Origin: a virus
Length of the DNA: 46,656 nucleotides
Direction: 5' to 3' (one strand)
Virus record (IMG/VR): IMGVR_UViG_3300046536_000127
Location: 1 to 46,656 of that record
Part shown: in pieces, positions 32,294 to 44,595 of the stretch
Layout: each line of letters begins with the position of its first letter
Position numbering within the stretch: the stretch's first letter is position 1
The notes under the pieces: model-generated
What the model was told of the DNA's origin: nothing
Databases searched by the model: none
The model's input: only the letters and a program-made list of their open reading frames with translations
Translations under genes and position numbers: made by a program

Positions 32294-32560
32294 CTATGCT
32301 TTGAAGCGAGGCGTGCAGCCCCGCCACGTTGACTGAAGGTCACCGTCCACGCAGGTTTTAGGTTTCTTGGTGACCCTCGCGAGGGTCCTCGGGTTCAAGC
32401 CCCGAGGGTATGCGAAGGTGCATCGCGGGCCAGAGGTCACAATGCTCGGAGCCGCTGGATGCGGATCGAAGGTGCCCAACTGGCCCGCGCCTACGAAGAC
32501 GACACCGACCAACCACGCAGCAACGCCAAGAAGTCCAATCGAAGTGCCGTCATTCGTCAT
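32294..32560 (-). CDS. Small signal-anchored protein (88 aa)
   Basis: The product MTNDGTSIGLLGVAAWLVGV... has one hydrophobic segment near residues 8-27, then a basic, Cys-containing part (RCTFAYPRGL, KKPKTCVDGD, RGCTPRFKA). It could be exported with Cys pairs outside. It lies directly after TerC. No family is recognised, and it is the least certain gene in this neighbourhood. Confidence 0.5.
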   Translation of the reverse strand: MTNDGTSIGLLGVAAWLVGVVFVGAGQLGTFDPHPAAPSIVTSGPRCTFAYPRGLNPRTLARVTKKPKTCVDGDLQSTWRGCTPRFKA

Positions 32561-32561
32561 T

Positions 32562-33212
32562 TTATGCAGCCTTGTTTTTGAAGCGTGCCCAGAGCCCCAC
32601 GAGGAGCACCAGTGCAGCGCCGGAAGCCGAGGTGATGGTGTGATCCAGGTACGGAGCAGCCCACGGATCAGCAGCGACGATGCCGCCTGCGACCCAGCCG
32701 AGAACGCCAGCGCCTGCCCAGACCATGATCGGGAAGCGTGCGACGAACTTGCTAATGAGAGCAGCGCCCGCGATGACCAGCGGGATAGACAGGACGACGC
32801 CGGTCGCCATGAGGACGATGTTGCCATGGGCCAGCGCGGCCACAGCAAGCACGTTGTCGAGGCTCATGGAGGCGTCAGCCACGGCAATGGTGCCGATGGC
32901 AGCAGAGAGCGTGATGCGCCCCACGGTGTCCCCGTTCTCGTCTGAGGCCTCGTCCACGAGGAGACCAACGGCCACCTTGAGCAGGAAGAGACCGCCGACA
33001 ATCGACAGCGCAGGAACGCCGAGGAGGAACACGGCGAAGAACGACATGACGACGCGGAGCAGGACGGCTGCAGCAGTGCCACCAACGATGCCCCACTTCT
33101 GTTGCTCGGGAGGCAGGCGGTTGCTGACGAGCGCGATGACGACCGCGTTGTCACCCGACAGCAGGAGGTCAATCCATACGATGCCGAGTAGCGATACGAT
33201 GAAGGTTTCCAA
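32562..33212 (-). CDS. TerC-family integral membrane protein
   Basis: The 216-residue protein has about seven hydrophobic segments and both hallmark motifs: IDLLLSGDNAVVIALVS (SGDN, residues 19-22) and MSLDNVLAVAALAH (SLDN, residues 117-120). TerC/YjbE-type proteins act in tellurite resistance, manganese export and membrane stress. I start at TTG 33212, with GGAG about 9 bases upstream, immediately after a terminator. Phages seldom carry such a gene, and its TerB-like neighbour makes the pairing more notable. Confidence 0.85.
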   Translation of the reverse strand: METFIVSLLGIVWIDLLLSGDNAVVIALVSNRLPPEQQKWGIVGGTAAAVLLRVVMSFFAVFLLGVPALSIVGGLFLLKVAVGLLVDEASDENGDTVGRITLSAAIGTIAVADASMSLDNVLAVAALAHGNIVLMATGVVLSIPLVIAGAALISKFVARFPIMVWAGAGVLGWVAGGIVAADPWAAPYLDHTITSASGAALVLLVGLWARFKNKAA

Positions 33213-33232
33213 AGGAAGCAGTCTCCAAGAAA

Positions 33233-33254
33233 AAGGGGCCCCGAAGGACCCCTT
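33233..33254 (-). terminator. Terminator with UUCG tetraloop upstream of terC
   Basis: On the minus strand AAGGGGTCC-TTCG-GGGCCCCTT forms a 9-bp stem (one G-U) closed by a C(UUCG)G loop, then TTTTTCT. It lies between the TerB/peptide genes and the TerC ribosome site (GGAG). It will terminate or attenuate transcription entering terC. Confidence 0.88.
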
Positions 33255-33258
33255 AGGT

Positions 33259-33339
33259 TCAGATGGTTCGAGCGATGTAGATCAGGATCGGCACCCCAAC
33301 GGAAAACGTCGCGGTGACGATTAGCTCTGCTACGCTCAC
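33259..33339 (-). CDS. Tiny membrane peptide (26 aa)
   Basis: A GTG start overlaps the TerB stop (GTGA). The peptide MSVAELIVTATFSVGVPILI... is almost entirely one hydrophobic helix and ends IARTI. It lies between TerB and the terminator that precedes TerC. It may be a regulator of TerC or just a coupled leader. Confidence 0.5.
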   Translation of the reverse strand: MSVAELIVTATFSVGVPILIYIARTI

Positions 33340-33767
33340 CCGAGAAGCTTCGCGCCGTCCACGTTGAGGAGCTTGGCGATGTCGTTCAGCACGACCTGTT
33401 CCTCGGAGCCGATGCCACCCTGATCGGCAACGTCGGCCGAGATCAGGAAGACGTCCTGACGCACGCTCACGTCGCGGGTCATCAGCGCTTCGATGTTGCG
33501 CTTGTTCTCCATGCGACCGGCACGGGACTTCGCACGCGACAGGGCGGCGTTGAGAGCCTCCTCGATCTGCGAGGAAGAGTAGGACGCGGAGACCAGCGGG
33601 TTGGCCTGCATGCCCGAGATGGCGCTGTCGATTTCGTTGTCGTCGATGGAGCCGTCCGCAGCGGTGACGTTGGCAGCGGCCGAAGCAACGCCCTTCAGGA
33701 AGGTCGTGTCGCCAGTGTAGCTGTTGAGGGTCTTGCGGGCGGCGGCGAAGAAGTTGGAGAGGCTCAT
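33336..33767 (-). CDS. TerB-like protein
   Basis: The 143-residue helical protein has AAANVTAADGSIDDNEIDSA in its first half and SADVADQGGIGSEEQVVLND with IAKLLNVD near the end. This is the duplicated D-G-x-I-x-x-x-E pattern of TerB (tellurite-resistance/DjlA-associated) domains that bind metal. A good ribosome site (AGGGAC) precedes it. TerB and TerC proteins form membrane metal-sensing complexes in bacteria. Here the two genes are separated only by a tiny peptide and a terminator. Confidence 0.8.
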   Translation of the reverse strand: MSLSNFFAAARKTLNSYTGDTTFLKGVASAAANVTAADGSIDDNEIDSAISGMQANPLVSASYSSSQIEEALNAALSRAKSRAGRMENKRNIEALMTRDVSVRQDVFLISADVADQGGIGSEEQVVLNDIAKLLNVDGAKLLG

Positions 33768-33782
33768 AGGATCAGTCCCTGT

Positions 33783-33896
33783 TCAGAAGAACCATCGGCT
33801 CACGGGATATCCGCGAGCAATCTTGATGGTCGATGAAACGATGTAGATGATGCCAATCGCGTCGATGACGTGATTAGCGAGAACGGCGAGAATCAT
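33783..33896 (-). CDS. Tiny membrane peptide (37 aa)
   Basis: The frame ATG 33896 to TGA 33783 reads MILAVLANHVIDAIGIIYIV and ends ARGYPVSRWFF, with one hydrophobic helix. It couples by TAATG to the gene upstream. Function unknown. Confidence 0.5.
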   Translation of the reverse strand: MILAVLANHVIDAIGIIYIVSSTIKIARGYPVSRWFF

Positions 33897-36735: not shown

Positions 36736-39270
36736 TCACGCGAAGGCGTATAGAGCGCTGATCACCTGTTCCAGCGGCAAATCCCCCGGGATAGGCTTCG
36801 GAGCCTTCTCAAGCTCTTTGGCCAGCTTGGCCCGGCCCGCCTCAGATAGCTGCGCGTTGGCATCTTCCAGAAGCTCCTGCAGGACGTCGGTATTTTGATA
36901 GATGCGCAGGAACTCTTCGCGGATCACCTCATTGAACAGGTCAGCATCCGCTGGAAGGCAACCGTAGCTATCATGCACAGTCGCGAAGTCCACGACACCA
37001 CGGTCTGCAGCCGCGTTCACAGAGGCCTGCAGATGCGCGCCGTCGAGGGCATGCACGAAGTTAGGGGCAACGCCATTGGTCACCTCACGCTTCGCGATGT
37101 TCGCGTCGAAGCCATCCGCCAGCGACGTCTCGACGGTCACCCGAACGCCCTTGCTGTAGCAAGAGAGCTTGATGACCTTGACGTTGGACGAATGGTAACG
37201 GTTGATCCACGGGAGACCCATGGGCGTCTTCCACGTCAGCGCCTTGCCTTCGTGAGCGAGTTGCTGTGCGAGCTTCTGCATGAACGCCATGGCTTCGGCA
37301 GGCTTGGTCACAACGCTCTTGATTGCAGCCATCGCACGCTTGGCGAGATACGACGCGGCCAACTGCTGCTCGGCAAAGGTGGTGCCGAACGGATAGTTGC
37401 CCTTGAGGCTCTCAGCGTCGATGGTGTCTTCCACGTGCTGTTCCTTCATCCCGTTCTCTTTCGAGCTATAGGCGAAGGTCATCACGTTACGCTTCACGAG
37501 CTTGCGGTTGACGCCATACTCGATGGCGAGTTGCGCAAGATCACCCAGCGTAGCGTTAGCCTTGCGGGGTTCGTCAGCGGGACCCTGAGCGTAATACAGG
37601 GTGTTGCTGTACTTGTCGGCTTCGATGCTCTTGAGCGCAGCGTCAGCGACCAACTGATAGATGTCCTCGGGCGTAGCGTTGTCCGTCAGGTTGACGTACT
37701 TGCCTTCGGGCGCGCGGGTCATGGCGCACAGATGCTGCAGGCCATTGCAGCTACCGTCGAAGGCTACCGGAAGGTGGCAGACGTACGACGGATTGTCCCA
37801 TGCGTTGACCAACTCACGGACTGCAGCGAGGAAGGCGAAGGGCTTGTCGGCCTTCGTCCAGTCGGTGTTGTGCAAGGGACGCGCAACGTAGTCCCGCAGC
37901 AGTTCGATGTTGTCGTTTGCCCACTGCACGCGCACGTGCATCGGCTGCTTGTCGAGCTTCTGCTCGCCGCTCCAGGTATTGGCGCATTGGAGCTTCAGGT
38001 GATAGATGCCCCGCTCGCCAACCGGCTTGCCATTGGCAAACAGGAACATGCCGCGCACGTAGTCCTCGCGCTGGAAGTTGAATTGCGTGAGGTAATAAAC
38101 GCGACCGCGCCAGTCGAGGTTCATCGGGGTAAAGAAGCGCTCAGCGAGTTGCATGCGACGGGCAACGCTCAGGTCGATGTTGAACTTGAGACGTGCAGCC
38201 TTGTCGATGCGGTTGCGCTTCTTCTCGGTCTTGATCTGCGCAGCGCGACGGCCCTGCTCAGCCTTGGTCATTGCAGCCCACACGTCATCCGCAGAACGCG
38301 GGGTGACCTTCTTGGGCGTCTTCGGGGGCACGCCCTTAACCTCGATACCGAGGTGGTCGCATTCCTGCAGGACACCCAGCAGCCAACCGTTGAGCTTGTA
38401 AGGCACGCTCTGCAGGTTGTTGACTGCACGCATGACGCCATCCATCTGGCCCGTGCGAATGGCGTGCTTGATGGCGGCGACGGTCTCTTTGTGCAGCGTG
38501 CGGACCAAGGGGACCGCGACGGACGCAAAGCGCCTGTCTTCTGCAATCTTCGAATAGAAGCCTGTCCAATCGTCAGGCTTCACAGTGCGCGGCTGATACA
38601 CTGGCGACTTCAGCACGGCATCGTTGACGACGTCGTCCATCATGGTCGCGGCTTCGTCGGTGACGCTCCACGCCTTCTCGCTATCGTTCGGAATTTCGCG
38701 AAGCTCGAACACGTCAGGCAACGTCTGCAGCAGGATGTTCACACCCCACTGGCCAGCGTGCAGGCGCATCGGCCGCGACCACTCCTCCATCGTGAACCCA
38801 AGGCGGCTGGAGGCGTCTTTGATCACCTTGGCTTGCCTGAGCTTCACATTGGCGAAGCGCTCGCCAGCGGCCTTCGTAATGGCCCCTGCGGCCTTCTTGT
38901 CGGTGACCAGAAGCTTGGCCATGTAAGCCTCGGTCCACAGCGAGCCACCAATGGCCAGTGCGGCGTCACGGTGAGTGTGTTCGAGGGCGACGCTGTTGAG
39001 CGCAGGCATGAGGCACGCCAGTGCGATCACCTCAGGCTGCAGGCCCCTAAGGACACGCTGCAGCTTGAACTCCATGCTGTCGGAGCGGAGCTTGTGGCTG
39101 TTGTTCAATGCTTCAACGACACCCGCCTTGACAGCGCTCAGGCTGCGCTCGGTGAGCTTACGTGCACCTAGGGTGCTGCTGAATCCTTCGTTGGTCCTAG
39201 CTCTTGTGTCTTGGGTGTTGATCTTTTTAACGGCTAGATCGAATTCCAGAGTAGACGGAATGGCGTTCAT
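36736..39270 (-). CDS. Single-subunit DNA-directed RNA polymerase, T7-like
   Basis: I start at ATG 39270 (MNAIPSTLEFDLAVKKINTQ); AAAGGAAC lies upstream. The longer frame reaching 39501 runs through the tRNA-like attP and is not coding. The 844-residue protein has motif A FDGSCNGLQHLCAM and motif B RKLVKRNVMTFAYSSKENGM. Motif C TVHDSYGCLPADA follows, and it ends SALYAFA, as in T7 RNA polymerase (which ends FAFA). It transcribes phage middle and late genes from its own promoters. The neighbouring terminator and motifs B/C probably regulate it. Confidence 0.96.
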   Translation of the reverse strand: MNAIPSTLEFDLAVKKINTQDTRARTNEGFSSTLGARKLTERSLSAVKAGVVEALNNSHKLRSDSMEFKLQRVLRGLQPEVIALACLMPALNSVALEHTHRDAALAIGGSLWTEAYMAKLLVTDKKAAGAITKAAGERFANVKLRQAKVIKDASSRLGFTMEEWSRPMRLHAGQWGVNILLQTLPDVFELREIPNDSEKAWSVTDEAATMMDDVVNDAVLKSPVYQPRTVKPDDWTGFYSKIAEDRRFASVAVPLVRTLHKETVAAIKHAIRTGQMDGVMRAVNNLQSVPYKLNGWLLGVLQECDHLGIEVKGVPPKTPKKVTPRSADDVWAAMTKAEQGRRAAQIKTEKKRNRIDKAARLKFNIDLSVARRMQLAERFFTPMNLDWRGRVYYLTQFNFQREDYVRGMFLFANGKPVGERGIYHLKLQCANTWSGEQKLDKQPMHVRVQWANDNIELLRDYVARPLHNTDWTKADKPFAFLAAVRELVNAWDNPSYVCHLPVAFDGSCNGLQHLCAMTRAPEGKYVNLTDNATPEDIYQLVADAALKSIEADKYSNTLYYAQGPADEPRKANATLGDLAQLAIEYGVNRKLVKRNVMTFAYSSKENGMKEQHVEDTIDAESLKGNYPFGTTFAEQQLAASYLAKRAMAAIKSVVTKPAEAMAFMQKLAQQLAHEGKALTWKTPMGLPWINRYHSSNVKVIKLSCYSKGVRVTVETSLADGFDANIAKREVTNGVAPNFVHALDGAHLQASVNAAADRGVVDFATVHDSYGCLPADADLFNEVIREEFLRIYQNTDVLQELLEDANAQLSEAGRAKLAKELEKAPKPIPGDLPLEQVISALYAFA

Positions 39271-39288
39271 CGGGGAACAGTTCCTTTT

Positions 39289-39315
39289 GTCTTGGCTAAA
39301 CGTCCCCCGGCTCGG
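39289..39315 (-). promoter_or_regulatory. 27-bp leader element, copy 2, upstream of RNA polymerase
   Basis: Identical to 36640-36666 over 27 bases. It ends 19 bases upstream of the RNA polymerase start and just before its ribosome site (AAAGGAAC). It is probably a leader or promoter element that puts the RNA polymerase gene under its own control. Confidence 0.55.
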
Positions 39316-39353
39316 CCGGTAACCCATTGATAGGGCGACAGATGTGTCTCTGG

Positions 39354-39383
39354 GGAAGTCTTTTGACACGTGGAAGGTATTAG
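39354..39383 (-). promoter_or_regulatory. 30-bp motif copy B upstream of RNA polymerase
   Basis: Matches motif A at 26 of 30 positions. On the minus strand it reads CTAATACCTTCCACGTGTCA then AAAGACTTCC. It lies 84 bases before the RNA polymerase start, directly downstream of a terminator. A promoter or operator role is likely. Confidence 0.6.
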
Positions 39384-39394
39384 GGGCGCAGAAA

Positions 39395-39412
39395 GGCCCG
39401 CCGTAGCGAGCC
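39395..39412 (-). terminator. Terminator with UACG tetraloop between integrase/attP and RNA polymerase
   Basis: Minus strand GGCTCGC-TACG-GCGGGCC gives a 7-bp stem (one G-U) with a UNCG-type loop, then TTTCTG. It separates integrase/attP transcription from the RNA polymerase unit, which restarts at motif B. Confidence 0.7.
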
Positions 39413-39450
39413 CTGTTTGTTGTATAGGTCAGAAAATTACGTTTACAAGG

Positions 39451-39466
39451 GGAAGTATTTTGACAG
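39451..39466 (-). promoter_or_regulatory. Half motif copy D at the attP-like site
   Basis: Plus strand GGAAGTATTTTGACAG matches 15 of the first 16 bases of motif B, then diverges into the tRNA-Cys-like sequence. It may be an integrase arm site or another copy of the operator. Confidence 0.45.
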
Positions 39467-39507
39467 CGGTTTTGCAGACCGGCGCGTAACCACTCCGCCA
39501 CGTGGCC
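39464..39507 (-). other. attP-like site: 5' half of a tRNA-Cys(GCA) gene
   Basis: The minus strand starts GGCCACG and continues TGGCGGAGTGGTTACGC, a D-arm with GTGGTTA. An anticodon stem-loop CGGT-CTGCAAA-ACCG follows, with anticodon GCA. Pairing stops after the anticodon stem; there is no T-arm or 3' CCA half, so it is not a functional tRNA. Since the integrase ends only about 20 bases away, it is best read as attP sharing identity with a host tRNA-Cys, with crossover near the anticodon loop. Confidence 0.75.
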
Positions 39508-39526: not shown

Positions 39527-40651
39527 CTATAAGGCTTTCTTGAAAGCAACCACTTCGCTGCTGTCGGGAATTTTGCTCTCGCCCCCAAGCGTTGGGGTGA
39601 GAAATTCGACAGCTTGGACGAGGTCTTCGCTCTCGACGTGGACGTACTTCTCGGTCGTCTTGTAGCTGCTATGTCCCATGAATGATTGGATTTTTGCCGT
39701 CGCCATGCCCTGCTTCGTCAGGTAGGTCGCAGCCGCGTGGCGTGCTCCATAAAGCGTGAGGGACGGCGGCAACCCAAGCAATTCCCTTGCGACGTCGAAC
39801 CTAGTGCGCGAGCGGCTGTAGTTTGGTCTCCAATCGTTCCCGATTAGTGCTCGTACCTCTCGCGCCAACCCGGGCGTAATAGGGATGTCTCTGGGATGAT
39901 TTGTCTTGGTCCGATCCAGCTTGATCCAACCCACCTCGGAACCATTTCCGGCCTTGCTGATGACGACCATGTGCGGCTCCAGCCCCGCGAATTCCGACCA
40001 GCGCATGCCGCTCGCACAGAGGGTCCGAACGATCAGCGCTTCCTCAGGCCAGCCTTGCTCCAGGTAATGGCGCACGAGGAGCGCTTGCTGGTCCATGGTC
40101 ATAAAGTAGATGCGGGTCTCGATGACGTCCTGCCACGGCACCTCAGGCACCCGGAAGTCCCCATAGACCTTCGGGCGCGACGCGGCCCACGTCAGGACGG
40201 CGCTGGCCATGGTCAGGTAGCCGTTGATGGTGCGGCCCCTGAGCTTGCCCGTGTCGTTGCGCCTGTTGACCACCTTGCGCTTGCGTAGGGCCGTCACCAG
40301 CCCGTCCAAGTCCTCGGTGCTCACGCGGGCAACCGGCAGGTGCCCAATGTGCTCTATGACCCAGTCGAGCCGCTTCTGGCCGCTGACGTCCCGCCCCTGC
40401 AGCCAAACGTCATGCTTGGCTCGCATGTCCTCGGCCGCTTCCTTGAACGAAGGACCCTTGGCTTCCTCGGCCGATTGCTGGGGCCATAGGCCCGTCGCAC
40501 GCGCGTAAGTCTCTGCAGCCTCGGCCTCGGCCTTGCTGTCGAATGCGCGACGCATGCGCTTCTCTGGCTGGCCCTTAACACGCCACCAGAAGTCTACGGC
40601 CCATCGGCCCGTATGCTTCTTCGTGCGGCTGTCGCGTTCTGCAAATGCCAT
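39527..40651 (-). CDS. Tyrosine-family site-specific integrase
   Basis: The 374-residue protein has a SAM-like N-terminal core-binding part (about 70-170). The catalytic domain shows Arg in CASGMRWSEF and Lys in RTKTNHPRDIPI. H-x-x-R-like LYGARHAAATYL follows, then MGHSSYKTTEKYVHV with the nucleophile Tyr. It would catalyse recombination between attP and the host tRNA-Cys, giving lysogeny. The start ATG is at 40651, just after a regulator gene. A temperate T7-like phage is thus indicated. Confidence 0.95.
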   Translation of the reverse strand: MAFAERDSRTKKHTGRWAVDFWWRVKGQPEKRMRRAFDSKAEAEAAETYARATGLWPQQSAEEAKGPSFKEAAEDMRAKHDVWLQGRDVSGQKRLDWVIEHIGHLPVARVSTEDLDGLVTALRKRKVVNRRNDTGKLRGRTINGYLTMASAVLTWAASRPKVYGDFRVPEVPWQDVIETRIYFMTMDQQALLVRHYLEQGWPEEALIVRTLCASGMRWSEFAGLEPHMVVISKAGNGSEVGWIKLDRTKTNHPRDIPITPGLAREVRALIGNDWRPNYSRSRTRFDVARELLGLPPSLTLYGARHAAATYLTKQGMATAKIQSFMGHSSYKTTEKYVHVESEDLVQAVEFLTPTLGGESKIPDSSEVVAFKKAL

Positions 40652-44391: not shown

Positions 44392-44503
44392 GGGCCAAAT
44401 CGTGGCGCGAATTCGCAAACTCGGACTAAACCCGCCGCCGCCTCCGCCGAGCTTACGGCTTCACTGCTCGACCTCGGGGCCCCTGAGTTCCCTTGGGTCC
44501 CAT

Positions 44504-44595
44504 CGGTTCCATCTCCAGGTCAAGGACCATCGGTTCCATCGGGGGACCTCGGTTCCATCGGGGCCCATCGAGCCGCGCTTGGCCTCGGTTCCATC
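44504..44595 (+). repeat. Four CGGTTCCATC direct repeats
   Basis: Copies start at 44504, 44531, 44550 and 44586, with related CATCGGGG flanks. Irregular spacing of 27, 19 and 36 bases suits a protein-binding iteron array more than a coding repeat. Confidence 0.85.

Follow-up and report, generated by a model that had tools for sequence, protein, structure and literature searches.

The DNA analysed here, referred to as the window, is a stretch of 46,656 bases from a virus (record IMGVR_UViG_3300046536_000127, positions 1-46,656). Profile searches identified a single-subunit RNA polymerase of the T7 type (PF00940, 2.6e-83; PHROG 414, 2e-178), a gp2.5-like SSB (PHROG 112, 3e-13) and an integrase (PF00589, 1e-12), and endonuclease I was also found with Pfam and PHROG profiles. 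This combination of genes marks the source, a soil phage, as temperate and T7-like. The same profiles upheld the initial annotation in placing a terB and a terC gene between RNA polymerase and SSB in a T7-like setting. Together with two micropeptide genes they form the series mp1-terB-mp2-terC, amid the polymerase, SSB and endonuclease genes and all on one strand (Table 1). The RNA polymerase of this phage is only about 30% identical to those of known phages, and the integrase gene (39527-40651) lies directly upstream of the polymerase gene (36736-39501) on the same strand. Four copies of TCGGTTCCATC are present within about 90 bases at 44503-44595. No T7-type phage promoters were detected by a search for repeated k-mers, and no sigma70-type promoters were found near the module, an absence which is weak evidence in this GC-rich setting.

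Table 1. Features of the TerB-TerC locus in the window, and location of a related gene pair in other phages
Feature	Position	Strand	Remarks
mp1, 37-aa one-TM micropeptide MILAVLANHVIDAIGIIYIVSSTIKIARGYPVSRWFF	33783..33896	(-)	start overlaps stop of upstream gene (TAATG)
terB, 143-aa divergent TerB, all-helical	33336..33767	(-)	PHROG 632, 2e-19
mp2, 26-aa one-TM micropeptide MSVAELIVTATFSVGVPILIYIARTI	33259..33339	(-)	GTG start overlaps terB stop (GTGA)
Hairpin resembling a terminator (UUCG loop, U-tract), located between mp2 and terC	33233..33254	(-)	folding
terC, 216-aa TerC-family membrane protein, YjbE subfamily, TTG start	32562..33212	(-)	PF03741, TIGR03717
88-aa membrane/secreted protein with Cys pair	32294..32560	(-)	start adjoins terC stop
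RWFF micropeptide + solute-binding protein pair	L158 7992-9055 (Bradyrhizobium phage BDU-MI-1); L159 6001-7054; L090-L104

On re-check, the coordinates, strands and lengths first given for terB and terC were all correct, and the 26-aa membrane peptide and UUCG hairpin described between them are both present in the sequence. RNA folding of the hairpin (33254-33233) gave -19.6 kcal/mol with a z-score of -1.9. It occurs in only part of the T7-like group, being present in the window and in contigs L002, L003 and L010 and missing from L004, L005 and L016. The 88-aa protein had no match in Pfam or PHROG; its gene is retained in sister phages without the module and was therefore placed outside it. 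The pN/pS ratios of terC (0.21), terB (0.28), mp1 (0.42, over 13 sequences) and mp2 (0.50) show purifying selection on the module genes.

The 216-aa protein had been read as a TerC-family member with SGDN and SLDN motifs, which was confirmed: PF03741 was matched at 4.3e-41 (141 bits, cut-off 27.8), and SGDN (residues 19-22) and SLDN (residues 117-120) were invariant across 20 relatives. The protein passed the YjbE subfamily model TIGR03717 (186.8 bits, cut-off 134.8) and remained below the threshold of the YkoY model (66.6 bits, cut-off 138.5); at E<=1, only YjbE, the weaker YkoY and a marginal PRK14013 were matched. Judged by these models, the phage TerC is of the YjbE type and not of the ter-operon type. 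Its predicted structure was too weak to use (pLDDT 57). In the tree, the phage TerC clade was sister to a clade holding Methylorubrum TerC, with a support of 96/96 for the joint group. The yybP-ykoY manganese riboswitch had no match in the window at the Rfam gathering threshold.

The 143-aa protein is a divergent TerB. PHROG 632, annotated as 'tellurite resistance', matched residues 16-140 at 2e-19, while the Pfam TerB family PF05099 scored 17.7 bits (E 0.0047), under its cut-off of 24.4. PF05099 was matched at E<=0.01 by 14 of 20 relatives, and a BLAST relative of the window protein, TerB of Rhizobium phage RHph_I1_18, exceeded the cut-off with 28.2 bits. Two copies of a D-G-x-I-x-x-x-E motif had been noted. 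The first is exact in the window (D-G-S-I-D-D-N-E) and conserved among relatives as D-G-x-[IV]-x-x-x-E, but the second copy is a degenerate form (A-D-Q-G-G-I-G-S-E-E). AlphaFold gave an all-helical structure of low confidence (pLDDT 63); with a model of this quality, the top PDB fold was 2h5n, a protein of unknown function (probability 1.00, E 0.015), and the match to 2ou3 (COG3793, tellurite resistance) was much weaker (E 2.9).

The pair is a conserved module across phage types. terC was located just downstream of terB on the same strand in 30 out of 30 viral contigs with close TerB relatives, hence the adjacency is not due to chance. These contigs comprise the group to which the window belongs, another T7-like group with RNA polymerases 41-49% identical to that of the window, and phages of 72-119 kb, for which a T7-type RNA polymerase was not found in the records. 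The pair had been presented as belonging to a T7-like phage; a TerB-TerC module in a phage it is, but it is not confined to T7-like phages, as the 72-119 kb phages and the plasmid pVL1_2 carry it too. A looser scan for TerC added 21 more distant contigs, nine of them with TerB next to terC, and no TerB was found elsewhere in the TerC-only phages. Compared with the window, L002 and L003 have TerC proteins of 95-97% identity but TerB proteins of only 67-69%, which indicates that TerC and TerB can be re-paired.

Other elements accompany the pair in related phages. A 77-aa coiled-coil protein (MFSKIKAFFV...KIKALVA; PHROG 2380, unknown function) is encoded between terB and terC in L020-L023, L030 and L033. 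About 100-250 bases upstream of terC, a strongly structured and conserved RNA leader was observed in L021, L030, L034 and L036 (also in L214 and L218-L220). Its core, CACCGGGCGCCGGTTGGACGGCGA...GATCCAAC, showed compensatory changes in 4 of 37 pairs over four sequences, and a comparison with Rfam, including the manganese riboswitch, gave no match above chance. The leader of L021, L030, L034 and L036 is a candidate for an RNA that regulates terC in these phages.

Among the extra parts of the module, mp1, located directly upstream of terB, is the most conserved, rather than the 26-aa mp2. The peptide, which ends in RWFF and had been overlooked in the initial annotation, was present in all 23 TerB-TerC loci compared, at a distance of 2.5-5 kb from terB in some of the 72-119 kb phages, and had no match in Pfam or PHROG. 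Homologues of mp2 were limited to seven T7-like records; the coupled position after terB is taken by unrelated hydrophobic peptides of 22-31 aa in other phages and is empty in some. The mp1 family is also found beside a secreted solute-binding protein in phages without TerB-TerC, and no TerB or TerC was found elsewhere in these micropeptide-only phages. This weakens the case for mp1 as a subunit dedicated to TerB-TerC. In large phages that lack TerB-TerC, the gene after the RWFF micropeptide encodes a secreted TAXI/NMT1-like solute-binding protein (PF16868, PHROG 6856), an odd pair (Table 1).

The module can be absent. The flanking genes of L223 and L229 are those of the module phages, with none of the four module genes between them. 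Up to the module, L223 shares 98% identity with L227, which carries the module, and the value beyond it is 94%. At the junction in L223, roughly the first six codons of the mp1 gene are fused to the last codons and stop of a terC. Since this scar keeps both ends of the module, the four genes were lost together, and their loss shows that the module is dispensable; L229 carries neither module nor scar. The module is thus accessory and exchangeable, and one sister phage has lost it as a whole. In L223 and L229, the module position is taken by a one-TM protein of 72-73 aa that contains a Cys pair (L223 5660-5878, L229 4372-4593), and the same gene lies directly upstream of the micropeptide in L005.

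A profile search of 111 Methylobacterium-group genomes yielded TerB matches in 110 and TerC-family matches in 107 (about 50 of them strong). Chromosomal TerB and TerC were never adjacent among the matches listed, the nearest pair on the same contig among these being about 137 kb apart, and no TerC was present in five TerB neighbourhoods of 13 kb. A pattern scan of genome contigs detected no close TerB, the chromosomal TerB proteins found with the profile being more distant, and none of the 111 genomes contained a close integrated prophage of the window phage. The phage-like plasmid pVL1_2 of Methylobacterium indicum (NZ_AP024147) carries micropeptide, TerB (54% identity) and TerC in one cluster with phage-like nucleotide-metabolism genes; it differs from the window in a 307-aa gene separating the micropeptide from TerB and in a more distant TerC. 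Bradyrhizobium phage BDU-MI-1 encodes a 37-aa peptide of the mp1 family. From pVL1_2 and BDU-MI-1 we infer a host range within the Hyphomicrobiales. The best explanation of these sequence comparisons is that the module is built of protein kinds found on hyphomicrobial (Methylobacteriaceae-like) chromosomes.

Among known systems, the ter operon terZABCDEF (plasmid R478, E. coli O157, K. pneumoniae) comes close; it shares TerB followed by TerC and links to metals and phage resistance. For K. pneumoniae, a complex of TerC with TerB is cited; terC contributes there to resistance against Zn(II), Mn(II) and phages, and TerC behaved as if it were not a Zn/Mn efflux pump (PMC12054061). TerD (PF02342) is absent from the window record and eight relatives, with control sequences that did match, so the phage locus is not a ter operon; TerZ, TerA, TerE and TerF were not seen at the phage locus either, and micropeptides replace the remaining ter-operon genes. 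TerC is not of the ter-operon type, with 216 aa in the phage versus 346 aa in the operon (PMC11256456). The B. subtilis proteins MeeF, MeeY and YjbE share the Pfam family with the phage TerC, which passes the YjbE cut-off. In B. subtilis, TerC proteins act as Mn exporters and supply metal to secreted enzymes at the Sec translocon, while for YjbE itself the test made showed no phenotype; no TerB is mentioned there (PMC10550928), and the window differs in having no Mn riboswitch match.

Phages with ter-family genes have been reported before. Otagovirus PhiPsa374 carries terC, terD, terF and telA (PMC9796965) and Pyxisvirus carries TerC (PMC11256456); these TerC proteins share the Pfam family with that of the window at 40-43% identity, but these are large Pseudomonas phages and their TerC falls on a different branch. 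RHph_I1_18 also has a TerB (33% identity) and a YjbE-type TerC, but the two genes are 18 kb apart and form no module, unlike those of the window; TerB was not detected outside this phage in the phage collection. In Paracoccus phages, TerB was reported as an auxiliary gene, with TerB and TerC in different phages and never paired (PMC6536676). The PADLOC defence-system models gave only a marginal match to ThsA (0.0027), and a known anti-phage system was rejected. In line with the initial view that such a module was undescribed, no account of a phage module combining a TerB-TerC pair with micropeptides was found in the papers searched.

As for its function, the module is read, tentatively and with a little less than even confidence, as an accessory membrane complex for metal (Mn-type) or envelope stress in infected cells. 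The YjbE subfamily match and the invariant SGDN and SLDN motifs speak for this reading; the missing manganese riboswitch match and the results cited above for K. pneumoniae TerC (no efflux-pump behaviour) and B. subtilis YjbE (no phenotype) speak against it. TerC in the inner membrane would be a YjbE-type transporter or metallochaperone for Mn2+-like metals, by analogy with its relatives, and TerB, an acidic, soluble and helical protein, may dock on the cytosolic face of TerC as a sensor or adaptor. Small membrane proteins often tether or tune transporters, and the one-TM micropeptides may do so for the TerC-TerB complex. Judging from gene position alone, between polymerase and SSB and with no recognisable promoter of its own, the module is probably expressed with the early/middle lytic genes; simple co-transcription is weakened by the terminator preceding terC. 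The complex would steady the metal balance and the inner-membrane/secretion function of the infected cell until lysis, and would be helpful but not essential to the phage.

The main rival, superinfection exclusion or anti-phage defence, in which the membrane complex would prevent competing phages from delivering their DNA or from growing, during lytic infection or lysogeny, is somewhat unlikely. It agrees with an accessory, swappable module that is lost as a unit and occurs in unrelated phages whose hosts are probably related, and very small membrane peptides are, in their general form, reminiscent of exclusion proteins. The TerC of the ter operon is needed for phage inhibition, its deletion giving larger plaques, but TerD and TerZ are required as well (PMC12054061), and TerD is absent here. 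The phage TerC is moreover of the YjbE type, PADLOC gave no match of substance, and no lysogeny-linked position or promoter was recognised. A specific version is unlikely: a minimal phage TerB-TerC complex with dedicated micropeptides, unlike any bacterial ter locus, would exclude competitors through the metal/secretion state of the inner membrane.

The integrase would suit a moron of lysogenic conversion, expressed from the prophage and providing the host with tolerance to metal or oxidative stress, and a contribution of phage ter genes to the stress tolerance of the host has been proposed (PMC11256456). This is quite unlikely, given the position on the same strand among polymerase, SSB and endonuclease genes, the lack of a sigma70-type promoter (weak evidence, as noted) and the lack of a close prophage copy in the Methylobacterium-group genomes. 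It is very unlikely that the phage TerB and TerC counteract a Ter-like host response, whether to stress or in defence, by serving as decoys or dominant negatives. If the host is of the Methylobacterium group, targets exist, with TerB relatives on nearly all chromosomes and TerC relatives on many, but this host is only inferred, host TerB and TerC share no common operon among the matches listed, and the intact TerC motifs and purifying selection are unlike a broken decoy.

That this small gene set is exchangeable, occurs in unrelated phages and can be lost whole suggests that phages assembled their own mini complex for metal or membrane stress from host parts. The finding bears on why phages carry ter-family genes, of which earlier papers note incomplete sets, and it names a conserved family of 37-aa phage membrane peptides without Pfam or PHROG match. 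With a compact gene set, a clear boundary and sister phages that naturally have or lack it, the role of the module is directly testable, and it offers a reduced system in which to study the contribution of TerB to TerC in the absence of TerD.
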